Part shown: positions 20,447 through 30,892 of the stretch, piece by piece
Layout: each line of letters opens with the position of its first letter
How positions within the stretch are numbered: the stretch's first letter is position 1
Assembly: GCA_029243385.1 (NCBI GenBank)
Contig: JAQWSC010000015.1
Span: 35,541-99,540 of the forward strand
Direction: 5' to 3'
Length of the DNA stretch: 64,000 bases
Source of the DNA: Flavobacteriaceae bacterium
Lineage (GTDB): Bacteria > Bacteroidota > Bacteroidia > Flavobacteriales > Flavobacteriaceae
The notes under the pieces: generated by a model
The model's database searches: none
What the model saw: the letters and a program-made list of their open reading frames with translations, nothing else
What the model was told of the DNA's origin: nothing
Made by a program: the position numbers and the translations under genes

Positions 20447-22564
20447 ATGGCAATTTTAGGAAAAATTAGAGAACGTTCTATATTTTTAATTCTGGTAATC
20501 GGGATGGCATTATTTGCCTTTGTGATATCAGGTGTTTTTGACGGAGGGAGTGGATCAGGATTCGAAACAAGAGCTCCCATAGGAGAAGTTGATGGCGAAG
20601 AGCTTTCAATTGCTGAATTTCGCAATCAAGTCGATTTTTCAGAAAGAAACTTTAATATGACTTCCAGTCAAGCGGTTGAAAATGTGTGGAATCAAATGCT
20701 CCGCTCTACTATTTTACAACAAGAGTTTGAAGCTCTTGGCTTGGGCGTTGGAAAATCAGCAATCGAATTGGTTTTAAGTGAAAATCCAAATTTCAATTCC
20801 GACACTCGATTTCAAAATGAAATCGGTCAGTTTGACGTTCAAAAATTCATCGATTTTTTAGCCGAACTAAAAGCTACGAACCCCATTGCTTTTGAACAAT
20901 GGAGCAATCAGGAGGAGTCGCTCAAAAATTCATACCGCCAAACTGTTTATCAAAATTTATTGAAAGCCGGTTTAAATGCAACTGAAAAAGATGGAGAATA
21001 TGCATTTTATTCCGAAGGCAATACTGTGAATATTCAGTACGTTCAAATTCCTTATTCCAGTATTCCCGATAGTTTGGTATCTGTAACCAAAAAAGACATA
21101 AAAAATTATATAGAAGAGCATCCTTCAGATTTTGAAGTTGAAGCTTCTCGCGACATTCAATACGTTTTATTTGAAGAATCTCCGTCATTGGAAGATGAAA
21201 ATGCTATCAAAAGTAGCCTTGAAGAATTGTTGCAAGAAAAAGAAGCTTACAACGATGTTTCCAAATTGACAGAAACTCTTCCTAGTATCAAATCGACGAA
21301 AAACATTTCGGAGTTTATTAATGAGTATTCAGACATTAAATTTGACTCGATATATATTGCTAAAGGCGCCTTGCCAACTGCGGCAGCCAACACATTGTTT
21401 GCTTTGCCTGAAGGAGAAGTTTTTGGACCGTATTTAGACAACGGCTATTACAAGTTGTCTCGAATGTTGGATCGCAAAAAAGGAGGTTCTGTTCGAGCCA
21501 GCCATATTTTGGTTTCCTATCAAGGAGCTTCTAATGCAGCTTCTGATATTACAAGAAGCAAAGCAGCAGCCAAAGCGGAGGCACAACGCTTGTTACGAAA
21601 AGCTAGAAACAATCCGAGTACTTTTTCAGACTTGGCAAAAGAATTTTCGGACGGTCCTTCCAAAACCAAAGGAGGCGACTTGGGCTTTTTTCAAGAAGGA
21701 GCTATGGTTCCGAACTTTAATGATTTTGTGTTTTCAAACCGCAACGGTAAAATAGGGATGGTTGAAACGGACTTTGGATTCCACGTGATTCAAATTACAG
21801 GAAAAGAAGATGTCGTTCTGTTAGCCACCGTAGCTCGCAAGTTAGTTCCCTCTGAAGAAACTAGCAACTTGGTGTTTAACCAAGCTACAAAATTTGAGAT
21901 AGCCGCCCAAAAAGAGGTCGATTTTGTTCAGGTAGCTGAAGAAAACAAGTATTCGGTTCGACCGGTTAAAAACCTTAAAGTTTTGGACAATAACCTTCCA
22001 GGGCTTGAAAATCAAAGACGTTTGGTGCAATGGGCCTTTTCTGAAGAAGCTCAAGTAGGAGATATCAAGCGTTTTAATGTCAACTCAGGAGGCTATGTGG
22101 TAGCTCAATTAACGAACGCAGTTGAAGAAGGTCTTTCTCCTGTAGAAGAGGCTTCGGCTCGTGTAACTCCTATTTTAAGAAACCAGCAAAAAGCAGCATA
22201 CATTTTAGATAACTATTCAGACAATGATACGCTAGAAGCATTTGCTTCGGCAAACAATGTAACGGTTAACTCAGCAGCTGCGCTCAACACTCAGGCTGGA
22301 ACGCTTTCAGGAGCAGGAAGAGAGCCTCTTATTGTCGGAACTGCCTTTTCAATGTCAGAGAATGAAGTTTCTGAACTGTTGAAAGGTCAAAACGGTGTTT
22401 ACAAGATCAAGATTACTCAATCTTCCAAAGCAGCACCGATCGAAAATTACACGTTTTTCATCAATCAAGAACAAGAAAAATATCGCAGCAATATTTTGTC
22501 GAAAGTTTTCACAGCGTTGAAAGATTCAAAAGAAGTAATTGACAACCGAGCGGAGTACTACTAA
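20447..22564 (+). CDS. SurA_N/PpiD-type peptidylprolyl isomerase
   Basis: A 705-residue periplasmic folding factor anchored by one N-terminal helix (about 12-30). A SurA_N-like chaperone region follows, then a PPIC rotamase domain at about 345-450 with VRASHILVSYQG and GGDLGFFQEGAMVPNFNDFVF. A second chaperone region forms the C-terminus. It assists outer-membrane protein folding, in keeping with the upstream envelope genes. The operon ends at a strong terminator 28 bases after the stop. Confidence 0.92.
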   Translation: MAILGKIRERSIFLILVIGMALFAFVISGVFDGGSGSGFETRAPIGEVDGEELSIAEFRNQVDFSERNFNMTSSQAVENVWNQMLRSTILQQEFEALGLGVGKSAIELVLSENPNFNSDTRFQNEIGQFDVQKFIDFLAELKATNPIAFEQWSNQEESLKNSYRQTVYQNLLKAGLNATEKDGEYAFYSEGNTVNIQYVQIPYSSIPDSLVSVTKKDIKNYIEEHPSDFEVEASRDIQYVLFEESPSLEDENAIKSSLEELLQEKEAYNDVSKLTETLPSIKSTKNISEFINEYSDIKFDSIYIAKGALPTAAANTLFALPEGEVFGPYLDNGYYKLSRMLDRKKGGSVRASHILVSYQGASNAASDITRSKAAAKAEAQRLLRKARNNPSTFSDLAKEFSDGPSKTKGGDLGFFQEGAMVPNFNDFVFSNRNGKIGMVETDFGFHVIQITGKEDVVLLATVARKLVPSEETSNLVFNQATKFEIAAQKEVDFVQVAEENKYSVRPVKNLKVLDNNLPGLENQRRLVQWAFSEEAQVGDIKRFNVNSGGYVVAQLTNAVEEGLSPVEEASARVTPILRNQQKAAYILDNYSDNDTLEAFASANNVTVNSAAALNTQAGTLSGAGREPLIVGTAFSMSENEVSELLKGQNGVYKIKITQSSKAAPIENYTFFINQEQEKYRSNILSKVFTALKDSKEVIDNRAEYY

Positions 22565-22946: not shown

Positions 22947-23032
22947 AAAAAAAAAGTCCCACCGAGGCAGGACAAAAGATTTTCATCTGCGGCATATAGC
23001 CTTATTGTGATAAGAATGATTTAACTAAAAAT
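22947..23032 (-). ncRNA. tracrRNA of the orphan Cas9
   Basis: Read on the minus strand: an anti-repeat with AAATCA (23017-23022), a TTCTT bulge and ATCACAAT (23004-23011); then AA and a nexus hairpin GGC-TATAT-GCC (22991-23001); GCAGATGAAAATC; and a terminator hairpin GTCCTGCC...GGTGGGAC (22956-22973) with nine T (22947-22955). The order anti-repeat, AATAAGGC nexus, terminator is that of type II-C tracrRNAs such as that of Neisseria. The anti-repeat pairs with two repeat-like units beyond cas9. Predicted length is about 85 bases. It is divergent from cas9. Confidence 0.87.
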
Positions 23033-23037
23033 CATGT

Positions 23038-23068
23038 CAAAGGTATTTAATTTTTTTTAAACACCCAA
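23038..23068 (-). promoter_or_regulatory. Promoter of the tracrRNA, overlapping the cas9 5' region
   Basis: On the minus strand TTG (23066-23068), 20 bases, TACCTTTG (23038-23045). The spacing equals that of the tRNA-Phe promoter. The -33 box lies 21 bases before the cas9 ATG, and a weak opposite-strand TTAGTTTG (23069-23076) could be the cas9 -7 box. The two promoters would therefore collide, which allows mutual or RNA-guided regulation. Confidence 0.82.
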
Positions 23069-23088
23069 TTAGTTTGAATAAAACGCAA

Positions 23089-26000
23089 ATGAAAACATTA
23101 GGAATATCTTTAGGTGTTGATTCAATAGGATGGTCGGTAATAGACTCCAATCATAAAATTGAGGGAATGGGTGTGCGTGTTTTTTCTCCTGGTGCTCAGA
23201 ACCTAGGAATGGGCGAGCGCGAAATTTCAAATAAGGCTTCAAAACGTGAGGCGCGTTTGGTTAGAAAGGGACACTTTAGAACCCGTCTTAGAAAGCAAAA
23301 ATTACTACACTTTTTAATAGACCACAATATGTGTCCCTTATCACATAGCGACGTGGTGGTTTGGGAAAATCAAAAAATAGCTCCTATTGATAAAAGCAAA
23401 GAGTGGTTTGCAATGAACCCTTACAAGCTTCGAAGTAAAGCTGTTAGTGAAAAAATATCCTTACACGAATTTGGAAGAGTTTTGTATCACATGGCTCAGC
23501 GGAGAGGGTTCTCATCGATTCATTCGCAATACAATCCCATATTGAGTACATTGAAATTGGGCAACCCCGAAAAAAAAACGGTTGGAATTAAAGAAACCAA
23601 AAGAAAAATAAAGAATACTACATTGGGGGAATACTTGCATTCCATTCAACCCGAAGAGAATACAACTTATCAGAACAAACCTGCTAGAATTCGAAATCGA
23701 TATACAGAAAGATCTATGTATATTCATGAATTCAACGTGTTGTTTGACTCTCAAAAACAGTATCACCCAGGGTTGACCAATGCGATAAAAAACAAATTGG
23801 GCGTTGGGTTGGAAGAAGAAAATACAGCCAAAGGACTTTTGTTTTTTCAGCGTCCTTTGAAGTCCAAAAAATATTTGGTTGGAAATTGCCCTTTTGAACG
23901 CAACAAGACAAAAGCTCCTTCCAGTTGTCCAGAATTTGAAATGATGAAAATTTACAAATGGGTTAATTCAATTCGGTACAATAATTTACCACTGTCTGAA
24001 GAACAAAAAGAACAAGCGATTCAAGTGGCACTTAAGTTTTCGCGATTTTCGTTTTTGAAAGTGAGAAAAGCACTCAACAAAACAAGTTCCTCGGATTCAT
24101 TTAATTATCATGATAACGATATTCAAATCATATCCCATACTCTTGTAACACTTTGTAAGCCAAAGTTTTTTGGAAAGGATTGGTTTGAATTTACCGAAAA
24201 AGAGCAAGAAGATATTTGGCATGTGCTGTATTTTTTTAACGATAAAAAGAAATTGATCCAATATGCAGTATCTCATTGGGGATTTTCGCTGAGCAGTGCA
24301 AAGGAACTTTCAAAAATTTCTTTGAAAACAGATTATGCAGACTTGAGCCGAAAAGCCATTCGAAATATTATGTTTTTTCTCAAACGATCAATAAGTTATG
24401 AATTGGCGGTCATTTTAGGAGGAATTAAATCATCGCTCGGAAAAAACTGGACGCGCTTGGGTGAGGGTGATATTGATGCCCTTGTTTATTCAGTAACATC
24501 TCTATATGAAGAAAATGAATTGTATGGTTTTATTCCAGCTCTTCAAGCTCATTTGAAAGACGAATTCCAATTTTCAGAAAAACAGATACGAGGGCTTTAC
24601 GGAATTGCCTCACAAATTATAAATTACGAATCTTCAAAGTTTTTACCAACCAATGCTAAAGAAGATAAGGAAATCATTGCTCTTAAAAAACCGTTGCTAA
24701 TAACAACAATTTTTCAATTGAGAAAAGTAGTCAATCAAATTATTAAAAAATACGGCTCCGTGGATCAAATAAAAGTAACCCTTTTACCCGAATTAAAAGC
24801 CAGCCGCCCTCAACGAAGAATCATTTACTCTGAACGAAAAAGACGCAAAGAAAATTCACTGAATATCCAACAAAAAGTAATTGATCTTGGTAAAAACCCT
24901 ACTTTTTTAAACATAACCAAACTTGATTTGTGGGAAGAATCCAAAGGGTTTTGCCCTTATACAGGAACTCCCATTGCAATAGAGGATCTTTTTACAAACA
25001 AAGTCTCGGTAGTTTACATTCGCCCTTGGGATCGTTTTATTAATGATTCTAATTTGAACCGAACCCTTTGCAAAACGTATTTTAAAAAACATATTGAAGG
25101 GCAAACTCCTTACGAATTTTTTTCTTCCGACATAAAATACAATTGGGACGATATTAAAAAAAGAACCGCTAAGATTTTTTCTGACTCTAAAACACATCCC
25201 AATAGCTATGAGAAATTCAAACACTTTGTTCTTGTTGGAAAACAAGATGCAAACTATTTGACAGAAATCAACGATCAGCACCATTTGAGTTTGGAGGTAC
25301 AATGCTATTTGAATAAAATTTGCTCCAATGTAATAATGAGTTCAGGCTTTGTAAACAATCGACTTAGAAAAAAATGGAATCTTGATTTACCAGATGACAA
25401 GCAACGAAAAACGCTTTTAGATGACCATAGACTCCATGCTATGCACGCATTAACAACCGCCTGTTGTGAAATTAAATTTTTAAATGCTTTGGCTCATCAC
25501 AATCGTTTTGAAATTACAAATAACCCTTCGTTATTTCCAATGCCATGGGCTGGTTTTGATAAAGATGCTAAGGAGGCCTTGGATAAAATTATTGTGAGCC
25601 ACCAATTCAAAGATACCATACTCACAAGTACGCACTATAAAACTCGAAAGAAAGGAGTTTTGTATAGAAACAAAGGGGTAGCGGCTCGAGGGAGCTTACA
25701 CAGAGAAACCTATTACGGGAAACGAACAACCCAAAGTGGCGAAGCCTACCATCTTAGAAAACCACTGGGAACCATTACCACTCTTAAACAAATCAACCGA
25801 ATAGTAGACCCTGTGATTAAAAAATTAATTTTTAATCGCATTCAATCTTTGGGTGGTTTTGATAAAGGAAAAGTTCCTAAAAAAGCCTTTTTCAGCAAAA
25901 CCAAGACCGGGAAAACAATCCCCAAAATATTTTTACCCAACCGAAATGGCGACCCAGTTCCTGTGTTGAAAGTTCGTGTTAGAAATCAAGTAGGTAATGC

Positions 26001-26520
26001 GGTTCAGATAAAGTCACAAGGAAATAAATATGTAAATCCTAGAAACAATCATCACGTTCTTATTTACGAAGACTTAATGGGAAATTTACAACAAGAGATC
26101 GTTACATTTTGGGAAGTTGTTGAACGAAAGCGAAACGGGAAACCTGTGATTCAGATGCCTGACGATGGAAAAAAAATTATAACAACTCTTCAAATCAATG
26201 ATTGCTTTATCTTAGGAATGGATGACAAGGCAATCCACTGGAATCGTTTGGATTACAAAACAATTAAAGATCACGTTTATCGTGTTCAGCGATTGTCTTC
26301 GTGTTTCTATGAATTTAGAAGAGTATTTGATGCAAATATTACCAAATCAATCTATCCTAACTATGTGAGAATTCTAAATTTTGGGAATCACAAAACGGGA
26401 TGGATGACGTACAATCCTATAAAAATAAAAGTTAATGCCATTGGAGAAATTTCAAAACATGAAATCTCCTCAAACAGTTCTTTACATATTGACTCATCCA
26501 ATGTTGTTTTAAACGTATAA
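23089..26520 (+). CDS. Catalytically dead Cas9 homologue (type II-C-like), intact reading frame
   Basis: The 1143-residue protein aligns by eye with Cas9 along its length: RuvC-I (1-40, LGISLGVDSIGWSV), arginine-rich bridge helix (about 50-75), recognition lobe with AQRRGFSS near 140, RuvC-II (about 558-570), HNH (about 600-680, FCPYTGTPI...GQTPYEFF), RuvC-III (about 778-800) and a C-terminal PAM-interacting region (YRVQRLSSCFYEFRRVF). All nuclease acids are replaced: S7 for RuvC-I Asp, T564 for RuvC-II Glu, H786 for RuvC-III Asp; in HNH, Asp-His became V642-Y643 and Asn became K666. Only the RuvC-III His survives. It is shorter than the roughly 1400 residues usual in Bacteroidota. ATG 23089 (MKTLGI) is preferred over an upstream TTG. 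No cas1/cas2 adjoin. It should bind RNA and DNA without cutting; a regulatory role is inferred. Confidence 0.95.
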   Translation: MKTLGISLGVDSIGWSVIDSNHKIEGMGVRVFSPGAQNLGMGEREISNKASKREARLVRKGHFRTRLRKQKLLHFLIDHNMCPLSHSDVVVWENQKIAPIDKSKEWFAMNPYKLRSKAVSEKISLHEFGRVLYHMAQRRGFSSIHSQYNPILSTLKLGNPEKKTVGIKETKRKIKNTTLGEYLHSIQPEENTTYQNKPARIRNRYTERSMYIHEFNVLFDSQKQYHPGLTNAIKNKLGVGLEEENTAKGLLFFQRPLKSKKYLVGNCPFERNKTKAPSSCPEFEMMKIYKWVNSIRYNNLPLSEEQKEQAIQVALKFSRFSFLKVRKALNKTSSSDSFNYHDNDIQIISHTLVTLCKPKFFGKDWFEFTEKEQEDIWHVLYFFNDKKKLIQYAVSHWGFSLSSAKELSKISLKTDYADLSRKAIRNIMFFLKRSISYELAVILGGIKSSLGKNWTRLGEGDIDALVYSVTSLYEENELYGFIPALQAHLKDEFQFSEKQIRGLYGIASQIINYESSKFLPTNAKEDKEIIALKKPLLITTIFQLRKVVNQIIKKYGSVDQIKVTLLPELKASRPQRRIIYSERKRRKENSLNIQQKVIDLGKNPTFLNITKLDLWEESKGFCPYTGTPIAIEDLFTNKVSVVYIRPWDRFINDSNLNRTLCKTYFKKHIEGQTPYEFFSSDIKYNWDDIKKRTAKIFSDSKTHPNSYEKFKHFVLVGKQDANYLTEINDQHHLSLEVQCYLNKICSNVIMSSGFVNNRLRKKWNLDLPDDKQRKTLLDDHRLHAMHALTTACCEIKFLNALAHHNRFEITNNPSLFPMPWAGFDKDAKEALDKIIVSHQFKDTILTSTHYKTRKKGVLYRNKGVAARGSLHRETYYGKRTTQSGEAYHLRKPLGTITTLKQINRIVDPVIKKLIFNRIQSLGGFDKGKVPKKAFFSKTKTGKTIPKIFLPNRNGDPVPVLKVRVRNQVGNAVQIKSQGNKYVNPRNNHHVLIYEDLMGNLQQEIVTFWEVVERKRNGKPVIQMPDDGKKIITTLQINDCFILGMDDKAIHWNRLDYKTIKDHVYRVQRLSSCFYEFRRVFDANITKSIYPNYVRILNFGNHKTGWMTYNPIKIKVNAIGEISKHEISSNSSLHIDSSNVVLNV

Positions 26521-26574: not shown

Positions 26575-26613
26575 ATTGTGATTTGATTTTTTAAAAGGTC
26601 ATCAACGAACAAT
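26575..26613 (+). CRISPR. Degenerate CRISPR-repeat-like unit 1
   Basis: It begins ATTGTGATTTGATTTTTT and ends ..ACAAT, inverted relative to its start, as type II repeats often are. ATTGTGAT (26575-26582) pairs perfectly with ATCACAAT of the tracrRNA. After one unpaired base, TGATTT (26584-26589) pairs with AAATCA, leaving a 1/5 asymmetric bulge like that in Cas9 guide duplexes. The guide would be the 20 bases upstream (26555-26574). A TCACT/AGTGA hairpin follows at 26616-26629. Confidence 0.65.
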
Positions 26614-26661
26614 GATCACTAAATAGTGAGCGTTTACTGAATTTAAAAAAATGAGAATAGT

Positions 26662-26694
26662 ATTGTGGTTTGATTTTAATTCAAACGACGTTGG
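26662..26694 (+). CRISPR. Degenerate CRISPR-repeat-like unit 2
   Basis: ATTGTGGTTTGATTTT is 15/16 identical to the start of unit 1, 87 bases further on, and keeps the same tracrRNA pairing (8 bp with one G-U, then TGATTT with AAATCA). After that the two units diverge. The guide would be 26642-26661. It runs up to the stop codon of the convergent DUF456 gene. The 87-base period and the divergence argue against an active, adapting array. Confidence 0.6.
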
Positions 26695-26699
26695 ATGTG

Positions 26700-27209
26700 T
26701 CAAAAAAGAAGCTCGGATTTATAGTCCCAGGCTTTGAGTACAAAAAGTACAAGAAAGACAACAGCAGTTCCGAGTTTTAAAAAAGTACCTGTCAAAAACC
26801 CAATAAATGAGCCCAGTGCTGCTCGAAAAGCCTTTTTAGAATCTTTATTTTTACTCATTTCTCCTGCAAAAGCACCTATAAAAGGGCCGATAATGATTCC
26901 AAAAGGAGGGAAAAACAATACTCCTAAAATAAGTCCAATAGTTGTTCCAATCATTCCCGACTTTGTGCCTCCAAATTTTTTGGTTCCTAACAGAGGAATC
27001 ACATAATCTAGCAGAAAAATCGCGATAGCCACAGCCAAGGTAATCCCTAAGAAACGCCAGTTGTCAGGAACAGCCTTTGTTGCGTGGAGCGCCCACAAGC
27101 CAAACCAACCAGTTAGGGGGCCTGGAAGCACAGGAAGAAAACTTCCGACTACTCCCAACATCACTAACAAAATGCCCACAAAAAACAATAGTGTATCCAT
27201 TGAATGCAT
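26700..27209 (-). CDS. DUF456 family membrane protein
   Basis: A protein of about 169 residues with five or six helices. Hallmarks are LPVLPGPLTGWFGLWALHAT in the first third, LLDYVIPLLGTKKFGGTKSGMIGTTIGLILG in the middle (cited as two parts, helix then glycine loop), and IIGPFIGAFAGEM near 115. These match the DUF456 family, whose function is unknown. I prefer the start at MHSMDTLL (27209) over a longer 183-residue form beginning at 27251; a TATTTTTA box upstream fits the -7 site. Confidence 0.85.
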   Translation of the reverse strand: MHSMDTLLFFVGILLVMLGVVGSFLPVLPGPLTGWFGLWALHATKAVPDNWRFLGITLAVAIAIFLLDYVIPLLGTKKFGGTKSGMIGTTIGLILGVLFFPPFGIIIGPFIGAFAGEMSKNKDSKKAFRAALGSFIGFLTGTFLKLGTAVVFLVLFVLKAWDYKSELLF

Positions 27210-27281
27210 ATTTATGCCATAAAAATACGAGATAGAATTGAAAATCATCAAACAAACCTCAAATTTTCGTAATTTTCACAA

Positions 27282-27746
27282 ATGAATAAGTGGCTTCTAT
27301 TACTAAGCGTTACACTCGTTTTTTTTTCGTGTAAACAATCATCACCTGAAAAACATTCGATTTCTTACGAATGGACTTTTTCAGACGAAAGCCCTTCTTT
27401 TTCTCACTGCGATTCACTTCAAACTTATAAAGAGCAATATCAGTGCTTTCAAAAAGAATTGAGTCGTTTGTTATCCAATCAGATCAACCAATACCGACTG
27501 CAGCCCAACAACCCACTCAATGACACTCTTGTACTTACTTTATTGATAGATCAAAAAGGCAAGATATCCATTAAAAATAGAAGCACTAACACGAATATCG
27601 ATACCGAATTTCCTTTTATAGACAGTCTTTTACAACTGTCGGTATCCAAGATGCCCAATGTGTTGCCAGCAACCAAGACTAATGTTGGACTTCCTGTAAA
27701 ATCCACGATTGACTTGCCTCTTATTTTTAAAACGACACCTCAATAA
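27282..27746 (+). CDS. Hypothetical lipoprotein
   Basis: 154 residues. The signal peptide and lipobox are clear (LLLLSVTLVFFSCKQ). The mature part has a short region LVLTLLIDQKGKISIKNRS like a TonB-C or energy-transducer-like strand, but the match is weak. It precedes ruvC by 20 bases. I cannot give a function. Confidence 0.65.
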   Translation: MNKWLLLLSVTLVFFSCKQSSPEKHSISYEWTFSDESPSFSHCDSLQTYKEQYQCFQKELSRLLSNQINQYRLQPNNPLNDTLVLTLLIDQKGKISIKNRSTNTNIDTEFPFIDSLLQLSVSKMPNVLPATKTNVGLPVKSTIDLPLIFKTTPQ

Positions 27747-27766: not shown

Positions 27767-28339
27767 ATGAGTCAAAATCAATCCCCTTCTTCAGAACGTA
27801 TTATTTTAGGGATCGATCCTGGGACAACCATCATGGGTTTTGGATTGATTAAGGTGGTTGGAAAAAAAATGGATTTTCTTCAACTCAACGAGTTAAAATT
27901 GAATAAATTAGATGATCATTACGTTCGTCTTAAGCTTATTTTTGAACGCACCATTGAGCTGATTGACTCATTTCACCCGGATGAAATTGCGATTGAAGCT
28001 CCTTTTTTTGGTAAAAACGTGCAATCCATGCTCAAATTGGGGCGCGCTCAAGGAGTTGCCATGGCGGCTGGACTATCAAGAGGCATTCCCATCACGGAGT
28101 ATTCTCCTAAAAAAATAAAAATGGCCATCACGGGCAGTGGAAATGCAAGCAAAGAACAGGTTGCCAAAATGCTTCAAAGCGTTTTGGGGCTAAAAACACT
28201 TCCTAAAAATTTAGATTCAACCGACGGTTTGGCAGCGGCAGTATGCCATTTTTATAACGCTGGAAATCAACAATCTAACAAAAAATTTTCTGGCTGGGCT
28301 TCTTTTGTAAAACAAGAGGCACACCGCGTTAAAAAATAA
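27767..28339 (+). CDS. ruvC: Holliday junction endonuclease RuvC
   Basis: A 190-residue resolvase that cuts four-way junctions with RuvAB. The acidic active site is intact: ILGIDPGTTIMGFG (D17), AIEAPFFGKN (first Glu) and STDGLAAAVCHF (Asp), unlike the Cas9 RuvC domain encoded about 1.2 kb upstream. The C-terminus has a Lys/His extension. It overlaps no gene; hemW starts 4 bases later. Confidence 0.96.
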   Translation: MSQNQSPSSERIILGIDPGTTIMGFGLIKVVGKKMDFLQLNELKLNKLDDHYVRLKLIFERTIELIDSFHPDEIAIEAPFFGKNVQSMLKLGRAQGVAMAAGLSRGIPITEYSPKKIKMAITGSGNASKEQVAKMLQSVLGLKTLPKNLDSTDGLAAAVCHFYNAGNQQSNKKFSGWASFVKQEAHRVKK

Positions 28340-28343
28340 AGGT

Positions 28344-29471
28344 TTGGCAGGAGTTTATATTCATATTCCATTTTGTAAACAAGCTTGTCACTACTGTGAC
28401 TTTCATTTTTCAACACAGTTGAATCACAAGACTGCCATGCTCAGTGCTATCAAGAAAGAAATAGCCATTCGGTCAGTCACATTTTCGCAATCTATCGAAA
28501 CGATTTATTTTGGAGGAGGGACCCCTTCTGTACTTACTCCCACAGAAATCGCGGAATTGATACACCAAGTACAATCTCATTTCAATGTGACCGAAAATCC
28601 TGAAATTACTCTTGAGGCTAACCCTGACGATTTAAATACATTCACGCTTCAATCCCTATCCGATTCTTATGTAAATCGCTTGAGTATAGGCATACAATCG
28701 TTTGATAACCATGAATTGAAAATGATGAATCGGGCTCACAACGCAGATCAAGCCATTCAGTGTTTGGATGCCGCTTCTAAGTTGTTTAAAAATATTTCTA
28801 TTGATTTGATATACGGAATGCCAGATAGCTCATTAGCATCCTGGCAAAAAAATATTGAACAAGCACTGGAATTTGATTTTCCACATATTTCTTCTTATGC
28901 CCTAACCATTGAACCCAAAACAGCGCTTTACCATTTTGTAAAACAAGAAGTCATAACGCCTCTTGAGGAGGAGAAAGTTCAAGATCAATACCATTTACTT
29001 GTTGATAGGATGGAACAAAATCACTTTGTCCATTACGAATTGTCTAGCTTTGGAAAACAAGGGTATTTTTCTAAAAACAATACGGCCTATTGGAAAGGCA
29101 AAACCTATCTAGGAATTGGTCCTTCGGCTCATAGTTTTGACGGTCAAAAAAGAAGCTGGAATGTGTCTAATAATGCTCAATACATAAATGCTCTTCAAAA
29201 AGGGATGCGCCCGTTTGAAGAAGAAATTTTATCCAAAGTCGATCAATACAACGAATATATCATGACAGGACTTCGCACCCTATGGGGCGTTTCCGAAAAA
29301 GAAGTTCGTCATCGCTTTGGAGAGTCGTATGTAGAACATCTTTTGAAGCAGTCGCAACGTTATGTGGATGAGGGATTGCTTTTTTGGGATCAAAAATGCT
29401 TAAAAACTACCTCAAAAGGGAGCTTCTTAAGTGACGGGATTGCCTCTGCACTTTTTTTGATCAACCTTTAG
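28344..29471 (+). CDS. hemW: Radical SAM heme chaperone HemW
   Basis: 375 residues. The start is TTG, giving MAGVYIHIPFCKQACHYCDF with the cluster cysteines C11, C15 and C18 (Cx3Cx2C). FGGGTPSVL, EANPDDL and GIQSFDN follow as in the HemN/HemW family. The protein lacks the HemN oxygen-independent coproporphyrinogen oxidase features and so is best called HemW, which delivers heme to membrane cytochromes. Confidence 0.92.
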   Translation: MAGVYIHIPFCKQACHYCDFHFSTQLNHKTAMLSAIKKEIAIRSVTFSQSIETIYFGGGTPSVLTPTEIAELIHQVQSHFNVTENPEITLEANPDDLNTFTLQSLSDSYVNRLSIGIQSFDNHELKMMNRAHNADQAIQCLDAASKLFKNISIDLIYGMPDSSLASWQKNIEQALEFDFPHISSYALTIEPKTALYHFVKQEVITPLEEEKVQDQYHLLVDRMEQNHFVHYELSSFGKQGYFSKNNTAYWKGKTYLGIGPSAHSFDGQKRSWNVSNNAQYINALQKGMRPFEEEILSKVDQYNEYIMTGLRTLWGVSEKEVRHRFGESYVEHLLKQSQRYVDEGLLFWDQKCLKTTSKGSFLSDGIASALFLINL

Positions 29472-29488: not shown

Positions 29489-30892
29489 TCAACCAGCATT
29501 TTTTTCTAAAAATAGTTGAGTGAAATGGTGATAAAAAAGCGGGATGGTTTCAATCCCTTTCAAGAAATTGAATACTCCATAGTGTTCATTAGGAGAATGA
29601 ATGGCGTCGCTATCCAACCCAAAACCCATCAAGATAGTTTTGCTTTCTAACGATTCTTCGAACAATGCTACAATGGGAATACTTCCTCCATCTCGAACCG
29701 GAATGGGTTTTATTTTAAAGGCATCTTCGTATGCTTTGCTCGCTGCTTGGTATTCAATACCATCCGTTGGAGTTACATACGCCTCTCCACCGTGGTGCTC
29801 GGTAACTTTCACGGTAACTCCTGCTGGAGCAATGGATGTAAAATGTTTCGCAAAAAGACGGCTGATTTCTTTCCAGTTTTGGTTGGGAACCAATCGCATG
29901 GATATTTTTGCGTAGGCTTTGCTAGCAATTACTGTTTTAGAACCCTCTCCCATATAGCCGCCCCAAATACCATTGACATCCAATGAGGGCCGAATAGACT
30001 TTCGTTCGTTGGTAGAATAGCCATTTTCTCCATAAACAGCTTCTATGTCCAATGCTTGTTTGTAGGCTTCTAATGAAAATGGCGCTTTTGCCATTTCTTC
30101 TCGCTCACCTTTGGATAACTCCTCTACTTTGTCATAAAACCTTGGAATGGTAATGTGATTTTGATCGTCGTGAAGGGAAGCAATCATTTGGGTTAAAATG
30201 TTGATAGGGTTTGCTACTGCTCCGCCATAAAGTCCAGAGTGCAAATCTCTGTTAGGACCTGTAACTTCTACTTCCATATAACTCAATCCTCTTAGCCCTG
30301 TAGTGATGGAGGGCTGCGAATTGCTTAGCATTCCTGTGTCAGAAATTAAGATGACATCATTGGCGAGCTTTTCCTTATTGTTTTTCACAAAAACCTCGAG
30401 ATTTTCGCTACCAACTTCTTCCTCTCCTTCAATCATAAACTTTACATTACAAGGAAGACCCGATGTTTGTTGAAGCAATTCAAAAGCTTTAATATGCATA
30501 AACATTTGCCCTTTATCGTCGCAAGCTCCTCTTGCAAAAATTGCTCCTTCAGGATGTATATCGGTTGTTTTGATAATTGGCTCAAAAGGGTCGTTATCCC
30601 AAAGCTCTATGGGATCTGCTGGCTGGACATCGTAATGACCATACACCAAAACGGTAGGTAATTTGGGATCTTTTATTTTTTCTCCATAAACAATTGGATA
30701 ACCATCAGTTTCACAAATTTCTACAGAATCACATCCCACTTTTTCCAATTGTTCTTTCACGGCCTGGGCCGTTTTGATGACATCATCCGCATAGGCTGGA
30801 TCTGCACTTACAGAGGGAATGCGAAGCAAATCAAATAATTCTTCTAAAAAACGATTTTGGTGTTTTTCTATGTATTTTTTATGAATATTCAT
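29489..30892 (-). CDS. M20-family dipeptidase/metallopeptidase
   Basis: A 467-residue cytosolic peptidase. The zinc ligands are in YGHYDVQP (His and Asp), ARGACDDKGQ, and EGEEEVGSENLE (catalytic Glu pair). A lid/dimerisation domain with DLHSGLYGGAVANP lies in the middle and HSPNEHYGV at the end. This matches the CNDP/carnosinase-like subgroup of M20, which cleaves dipeptides. It is convergent with hemW. Confidence 0.92.
   Translation of the reverse strand: MNIHKKYIEKHQNRFLEELFDLLRIPSVSADPAYADDVIKTAQAVKEQLEKVGCDSVEICETDGYPIVYGEKIKDPKLPTVLVYGHYDVQPADPIELWDNDPFEPIIKTTDIHPEGAIFARGACDDKGQMFMHIKAFELLQQTSGLPCNVKFMIEGEEEVGSENLEVFVKNNKEKLANDVILISDTGMLSNSQPSITTGLRGLSYMEVEVTGPNRDLHSGLYGGAVANPINILTQMIASLHDDQNHITIPRFYDKVEELSKGEREEMAKAPFSLEAYKQALDIEAVYGENGYSTNERKSIRPSLDVNGIWGGYMGEGSKTVIASKAYAKISMRLVPNQNWKEISRLFAKHFTSIAPAGVTVKVTEHHGGEAYVTPTDGIEYQAASKAYEDAFKIKPIPVRDGGSIPIVALFEESLESKTILMGFGLDSDAIHSPNEHYGVFNFLKGIETIPLFYHHFTQLFLEKNAG

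Follow-up and report, generated by a model that had tools for sequence, protein, structure and literature searches.

A nuclease-dead Cas9 clade of uncultured Flavobacteriaceae with a predicted tracrRNA and fixed guides, a likely RNA-guided regulator

Organization of the dead cas9 locus

The window, a stretch of 64,000 nucleotides of Flavobacteriaceae DNA, contained a full-length open frame for a nuclease-dead Cas9, with a predicted tracrRNA on its 5′ side and two guides with shortened repeats on its 3′ side. The features of the locus were as follows.

20447..22564, plus strand: PPIC-type isomerase gene (ppiD/surA-like), conserved on the upstream side within group A alone
22947..23030, minus strand: predicted tracrRNA, 5′ of the dead cas9 gene on the opposite strand, assigned from sequence and structure
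22956–22973, minus strand: terminator hairpin of the predicted tracrRNA, plus a T-run
23004–23022, minus strand: anti-repeat of the predicted tracrRNA
23038..23045, minus strand: TACCTTTG, resembling a Bacteroidetes −7 element
23089..26520, plus strand: nuclease-dead Cas9 of 1143 residues, full-length open frame of 1143 codons
26555..26574, plus strand: guide 1 (A1 type), ATTTCGAGAAGTTAAAATTT, the 3′ 11 nt of which are common to another group of genera
26575..26588, plus strand: shortened repeat 1, ATTGTGATTTGATT
26642..26661, plus strand: guide 2 (A2 type), TTTAAAAAAATGAGAATAGT, which has the same sequence in G001, the sister species
26662..26675, plus strand: shortened repeat 2, ATTGTGGTTTGATT
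26700..27251, minus strand: DUF456 gene, the first conserved downstream neighbour, which marks the orthologous locus
27282–27746: lipoprotein gene, conserved downstream block
27767–28339: ruvC, conserved downstream block
28344–29471: hemW, conserved downstream block
29489–30892: M20 peptidase gene, conserved downstream block

An in-frame TTG at 23074 was a possible earlier start, which would add five codons to the dead Cas9. The dead cas9 gene was convergent with the DUF456 gene, which was followed by the lipoprotein gene, ruvC, hemW, and the M20 peptidase gene. This block also flanked the dead Cas9 in G001, G021, G165, G341, and G185, as it did in each of 11 additional loci of the clade, so that all 17 clade loci, the window included, shared the downstream genes as far as their contigs reached. 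Upstream, the isomerase gene was present in group A wherever the sequence allowed, and a gene for a small protein of 127–144 residues was found in six loci of group B. The LuxR-type helix-turn-helix profile GerE scored above the cut-off just upstream of the dead Cas9 in L082 (7683–8093) and L094 (9486–9920); when four small proteins of group B were tested with this profile, that of L033 gave a weak match and that of L036 none.

The own genome of the window (1.69 Mb, 99% complete) carried a single cas9 gene, the dead one. Cas1 (PF01867), by which type II-C immunity acquires spacers, was not found in this genome (0 of 1) or in the draft genomes of the other clade members (0 of 16), while it was found in 9 of 14 control genomes. 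Genes of Cas1 and Cas2 size lay beside cas9 in three of the four active loci that were read, as judged by size.

Fold and catalytic residues of the dead Cas9

The 1143-residue protein showed Cas9 homology over its full length (NCBIfam TIGR01865, E value of 4.3e-124), was called as Cas9 by PADLOC, and scored above the cut-off with the Pfam profiles HNH_4 and RuvC_III. Its sequence matches in the PDB were Cas9 chains. The AlphaFold2 model, built from a 60-row alignment (pLDDT 81.9, pTM 0.67), resembled two type II-C proteins, Nme1Cas9 bound to sgRNA (PDB code 6jdq; Foldseek E value of 1.2e-39, TM scores of 0.65/0.69) and GeoCas9 (PDB code 8jtr; 4.1e-35, 0.64/0.68). By full-length homology and fold, the protein is a member of the Cas9 family.

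In an alignment of 136 proteins, residues Ser7, Thr564, and His786 occupied the positions of the RuvC-I Asp, RuvC-II Glu, and RuvC-III Asp, respectively, and Leu782 that of one RuvC-III His. Residues Val642, Tyr643, and Lys666 occupied the positions of the HNH Asp/Glu, His, and Asn. His783, the other RuvC-III His, was the sole catalytic position that was retained, and by its sequence the protein otherwise lacks the RuvC and HNH residues of a Cas9 nuclease. The initial annotation had described an intact frame of 1143 codons, substitutions at Ser7, Thr564, His786, Val642, Tyr643, and Lys666, and an HNH core aligned without gaps; the open frame and the substitutions were borne out. An alignment artefact was ruled out by the 136-protein alignment, a 239-row alignment, and the AlphaFold2 model.

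A clade of dead Cas9 proteins

Homologues were gathered by two protein searches (the best 120 of each) and by a contig scan with an alignment query, of which the best 80 of 161 matches were kept; a scan of the contigs of genomes with a single protein as the query gave no matches. The 239-row alignment omitted 12 loci in which the longest frame was not Cas9. All eight catalytic positions were intact in 198 of the 239 rows and 36 rows were flagged dead, five of which were L013, a cut copy whose deadness was not established, and the duplicates L014, L015, L016, and L018 (of L088, L106, L122, and L103, respectively). Among the matches listed, the three closest homologues, with identities of 99, 81, and 71%, showed the same catalytic losses. 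Because these homologues shared the losses while 198 of 239 rows were intact, the losses are not due to chance. At least 507 member sequences, counted from the cluster member columns, belonged to 15 dead clusters besides the protein of the window.

The dead clade came from uncultured Flavobacteriaceae, and its proteins diverged down to about 36–41% identity. The HNH His was lost, mostly to Tyr, in every clade member in which the site was covered. The RuvC-II Glu was retained in most of group B and the RuvC-I Asp in L090, and the RuvC-II position of P0004 was Ser. In a 48-row tree, obtained by a quick search with midpoint rooting and in which L103 was a long branch, 20 dead rows formed one side of a branch with an SH-aLRT value of 100. 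The same split between dead and active proteins was found in a FastTree tree of 83 rows.

Predicted tracrRNA

The predicted tracrRNA was composed of the anti-repeat, a nexus hairpin, a second hairpin, the terminator hairpin, and the T-run. The element TACCTTTG was labelled by its resemblance to TAnnTTTG, which we take to be the Bacteroidetes −7 consensus, and the TTTG at this place was retained in most of the aligned loci. The tracrRNA sequence was present in all 15 clade loci having upstream sequence, including L095, which was overlooked by the strict pattern and had one change in the anti-repeat. Fourteen loci were alignable over TCTTATCACAATAAGGC, and RNAalifold predicted 14 pairs in three hairpins for them, with three pairs changed on both sides. 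The 14-nt repeat was complementary, as judged by eye, to the anti-repeat AATCTTATCACAAT, and the two would thus be expected to match as in a type II guide RNA pair. The same tracrRNA core was found in 56 of 65 loci taken as active because they carried no dead flag, among them L117, which is a fragment from the dead clade.

Fixed guides with shortened repeats

At least two repeats, typically GTTGTGGTTTGATTAAAGATTAGAAAACACGATATT, were present in 50 of these 65 loci. Of the 36-nt repeat of their active relatives, the dead systems retained roughly the initial 14 nt, together with a matching short anti-repeat. Copies of [AG]TTGTGRTTTGA lay 3′ of the dead cas9 gene on the same strand, two in group A and one in group B. 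In place of an array with full repeats and varied spacers, the dead loci carried one or two conserved guides with shortened repeats.

Guide identity was calculated as the mean pairwise identity in 10-nt bins anchored at the repeat. Guide A1 gave 1.00 and 1.00 in six loci, with 0.41–0.53 upstream and 0.37–0.45 downstream, and guide B gave 0.83 and 1.00 in nine loci, with 0.27–0.39 upstream and 0.37–0.41 downstream. The bins of guide A2 were 0.58 and 0.95 (six loci). High identity was thus limited to the guide and repeat, with variable flanks, and the spacers of 43 active loci had a mean pairwise identity of only 0.28. Guide B, TTCATTAAATAAATATAGT, was identical in eight of nine genomes, and the ninth shared its 3′ 12 nt. 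Guide A1, TTTTGTTTAGTTAAAATTT, was identical over 19 nt in six of six genomes, and the window retained its 3′ 11 nt. Judged by sequence, the guides are fixed and not adaptive, since the identity of guides A1 and B (0.83–1.00) exceeded that of their flanks (0.27–0.53) and of the active spacers (0.28).

Between the two guides of the window lay a near-perfect palindrome around CACTAAATAGTG (26615–26632), which had one change in G001.

Candidate targets of the guides

When the 22-mer of guide 2 was searched against the chromosome with up to three mismatches, it matched only itself. The 19-mer of guide B gave 55 matches in nine genomes at the same threshold, of which eight were the guides; the remaining 47 compared with 34 for the reversed control. 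The 12-mer seed of guide B gave 25 matches in G403 (one being the guide) against 2, and 23 in the other eight genomes, where the 15 left after removal of eight guides stood against 12.

In the G403 stretches L183–L222, ATAAATATAGTA, the guide-B seed plus A, was the top 12-mer by observed/expected ratio, with 10 copies observed and 0.08 expected in a 400-kb sample. Genome-wide, G403 had 24 copies of the seed besides the guide, in both coding and non-coding DNA, with the consensus AAA[CG]ATTA-ATAAATATAGT-AARYAA. This enrichment was absent from the samples of G341, G000, and G400. Guide B also matched the start-codon region of an orthologous secreted-protein gene with two mismatches in G399 and three in G403 (L137 and L209, position 11497), and a similar three-mismatch match was seen in G405. 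A lipoprotein upstream region common to G403 and G405 was dropped as a target after reading, and copies of the A2 or B core near the locus had no shared position.

Guide A1 led to the amt-glnK-porin operon for ammonium uptake. Its exact 12-mer had 17 matches in eight genomes, six being guides; two of the 11 others were in the ammonium operon, at the amt2 start of the own genome and in G407 before a porin gene that is followed by amt1. The 19-mer with up to three mismatches had 43 matches in six genomes, six being guides, and four of the 37 others were in the ammonium operon (G407, G409 twice, and G410). Each of the five distinct sites coincided with a start codon and was antisense to its gene, which is the orientation of CRISPRi. 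Composition-shuffled guides gave at least three matches in this operon in none of 1000 trials, the lead itself having been chosen after the fact. Genome-wide, the near-matches of guide A1 were not above the reversed control (43 vs 62 for the 19-mer and 17 vs 27 for the 12-mer). The amt2 site of the own genome matched its own guide at 14 of 20 positions with an 11-nt seed, and the amt2 sites of G409 and G410 mismatched the seed. A common PAM was not found in the 3′ flanks of the A1 sites in the operon. There was no A1 site in the operon of G411, the sequence of G408 was cut there, a complete amt2 was not found in G406, G001, and G400, and guide B had no matches at the amt regions of group B. 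As a short match to a promoter or 5′ region that would be conserved among genomes, the ammonium operon was a candidate lacking a common PAM. It is the best candidate target of guide A1, not an established one, and on these matches the assignment is possible rather than probable.

Fixed guides could instead direct a defence of innate type, in which the complex would bind a conserved mobile element and protect without cutting, comparable to Cas12m with acquired spacers, for which PMC11013384 gives a precedent. Exact 19-nt matches were present in five viral contigs for guide B and eight for guide A1, and no firm chromosomal target was found, both of which would suit such a defence. However, four of the five guide-B contigs represented one stretch, the 3′ flanks differed between stretches with no common PAM, and the guides were unchanged across genera, unlike in an arms race. 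The tracrRNA pattern was absent from the viral contigs. Phage targets were dropped, the five and eight contigs having no common flank, and innate-type defence is considered improbable.

Still less probable is an action on RNA, whereby the dead Cas9 and its guide RNA would prevent translation by binding mRNAs close to their start codons. Several near-matches of the guides were antisense to gene starts, and in Neisseria a type II-C scaRNA acts post-transcriptionally, according to PMC13431127. However, the antisense placement may be due to chance because AT-rich 5′ regions resemble each other, and the whole Cas9 fold, including its C-terminal part, was modelled and conserved.

Selection on the dead Cas9 and broken copies

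The dN/dS values were calculated by the Nei-Gojobori method, with dS being high in places. When the dead Cas9 was compared with that of the sister species, two C-terminal parts gave 0.114 and 0.079, and eight neighbour genes gave 0.032–0.170. The pair L106/L115 gave 0.107, and two parts of the pair L091/L119, both broken copies, gave 0.104 and 0.116. The dead Cas9 is under purifying selection, as indicated by a dN/dS of about 0.1, and changed faster than most of its neighbours.

The 17 clade loci comprised nine complete open dead Cas9 genes, six broken, and two partial. The frames of L119, L108, and L115 were broken by changes of one or two bases in A runs, which may reflect slippage, decay, or assembly error. 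L091 had a stop at the position of the HNH His, and L095 and L120 had split frames. In the contig of G001 (L003 1480–1560, L002), the tracrRNA ran straight into codon 879; this junction is either a deletion or a misjoin. A lone pseudogene was ruled out by the clade, the synteny, and dN/dS.

A decaying CRISPR-Cas remnant, which would have lost cleavage, cas1/cas2, and acquisition before its long frame was erased, is favoured by the six broken loci and the G001 contigs without codons 1–878, and is very unlikely in view of the low dN/dS (0.08–0.12, even in the pair of broken copies), the conserved tracrRNA and guides at one locus despite proteins of about 36–41% identity, and P0125, which was open though 98–99% identical to the pieces of L120.

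The proposal of the initial annotation that selection, instead of decay, had acted on the protein was supported by the shared losses, the clade with an SH-aLRT of 100, the single locus, dN/dS of 0.08–0.11, and the conserved tracrRNA and guides. Related strains with intact residues beside a drifting copy would have spoken for decay; the close relatives, at 71–99% identity, shared the losses.

Proposed function of the dead Cas9 system

The dead Cas9, tracrRNA, and fixed guides together are likely an RNA-guided DNA-binding regulator of the cell's own genes, most probably a repressor. A gene switch is likely, not an immune nuclease, because the dead Cas9 was kept at one locus beside conserved guide-RNA sequences. 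We infer RNA binding, DNA binding, and regulation by the dead Cas9. A crRNA-like RNA, with a guide of about 20 nt and a repeat of about 14 nt, would pair with the short tracrRNA, and the pair would load the dead Cas9. The complex may then obstruct transcription close to a promoter or start codon, in the manner of engineered CRISPRi. As to its origin, the system may have come from an ordinary type II-C locus that lost cas1/cas2 and spacer turnover, shortened its repeat and anti-repeat, and lost cleavage. Exaptation of Cas9 as a natural CRISPRi is the best reading. The six broken frames among the 17 loci, the failure to find a PAM or a firm target, the near-matches of guide A1 that were no more numerous than in the reversed control, and the excess of the guide-B seed in G403 speak against it. 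More tentatively, and at present doubtful, an old, vertically inherited dead Cas9 would tune a housekeeping operon through its fixed guides, with ammonium uptake as the first candidate.

If the regulator is confirmed, a form of CRISPRi with a minimal guide will have evolved naturally from Cas9 itself, its guides being preserved as the proteins drifted apart to about 36–41% identity. The clade would also provide a small scaffold of natural origin, and a single chromosomal locus would show how adaptive immunity gave way to gene regulation.

Comparison with known systems

Dead RNA-guided regulators are known from the TnpB and Cas12 lineages, and to our knowledge no native, dedicated dead Cas9 has been described. 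In engineered dCas9, used for CRISPRi, RuvC and HNH are inactivated by man-made point changes and the fold is kept. The same two domains were inactivated here with the fold kept, whereas the inactivation is natural, old, and extends to more positions. As the initial annotation had supposed, no report of a natural, domesticated or native dead Cas9 family was found in the open PMC literature, preprints excluded.

When compared with the type II-C systems of Flavobacteriaceae, the dead system shared Cas9 homology (about 45%), the place and core of the tracrRNA, the first 14 nt or so of the repeat, and guides 3′ of cas9. It differed in having no catalysis, no Cas1 found, one or two fixed guides, a shortened repeat and anti-repeat, and other neighbour genes.

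TldR, a TnpB-like nuclease-dead repressor with a fixed guide, has been tested on targets such as flagellin genes, as described in PMC13418256. The dead Cas9 resembled TldR, as portrayed there, in the lost nuclease, the kept guide RNA, the fixed guide, and domestication of the gene, and its probable role as an RNA-guided transcription repressor would be shared. In contrast, TldR derives from TnpB, whereas the present protein is a Cas9 by profile and fold with a tracrRNA and a separate guide, and has a candidate target where those of TldR were tested.

In scaRNA-guided repression by FnCas9, according to PMC8730458, the Cas9 is nuclease-active and also serves immunity, with Cas1/Cas2 and an array. 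Common to that system and ours were Cas9, the tracrRNA, a guide on a diverged repeat, and a proposed target in a 5′ region; by sequence, the diverged repeat outside an array would be able to pair with the tracrRNA. The dead system differed in having no catalytic residues, Cas1, or array, the single cas9 of its own genome being dead.

Cas12c (cited in PMC11127173), Cas12m (PMC11013384), and Cas12k (PMC11127173) are natural DNase-free class 2 effectors; Cas12m protects against phages and plasmids and Cas12k serves transposition. RNA-guided binding with no DNA cleavage would be common to these proteins and the dead Cas9, whereas they are type V. The present protein is thus a Cas9 by descent with neither the nuclease residues nor the adaptive features; it would act like TldR and scaRNA-guided Cas9, and would be a member of neither.

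A dead Cas9 outside the clade

A 21st dead row of the 48-row tree, L089 (9995–13342), had Tyr, Ala, Glu, Tyr, Lys, and Glu at the six catalytic positions, and the block from DUF456 to M20 was absent beside it. It fell among active Flavobacterium proteins as the sister of an active Flavobacterium copy, its bin being labelled Rhizobium. Because it was placed there, apart from the clade, L089 likely represents a second, separate inactivation.
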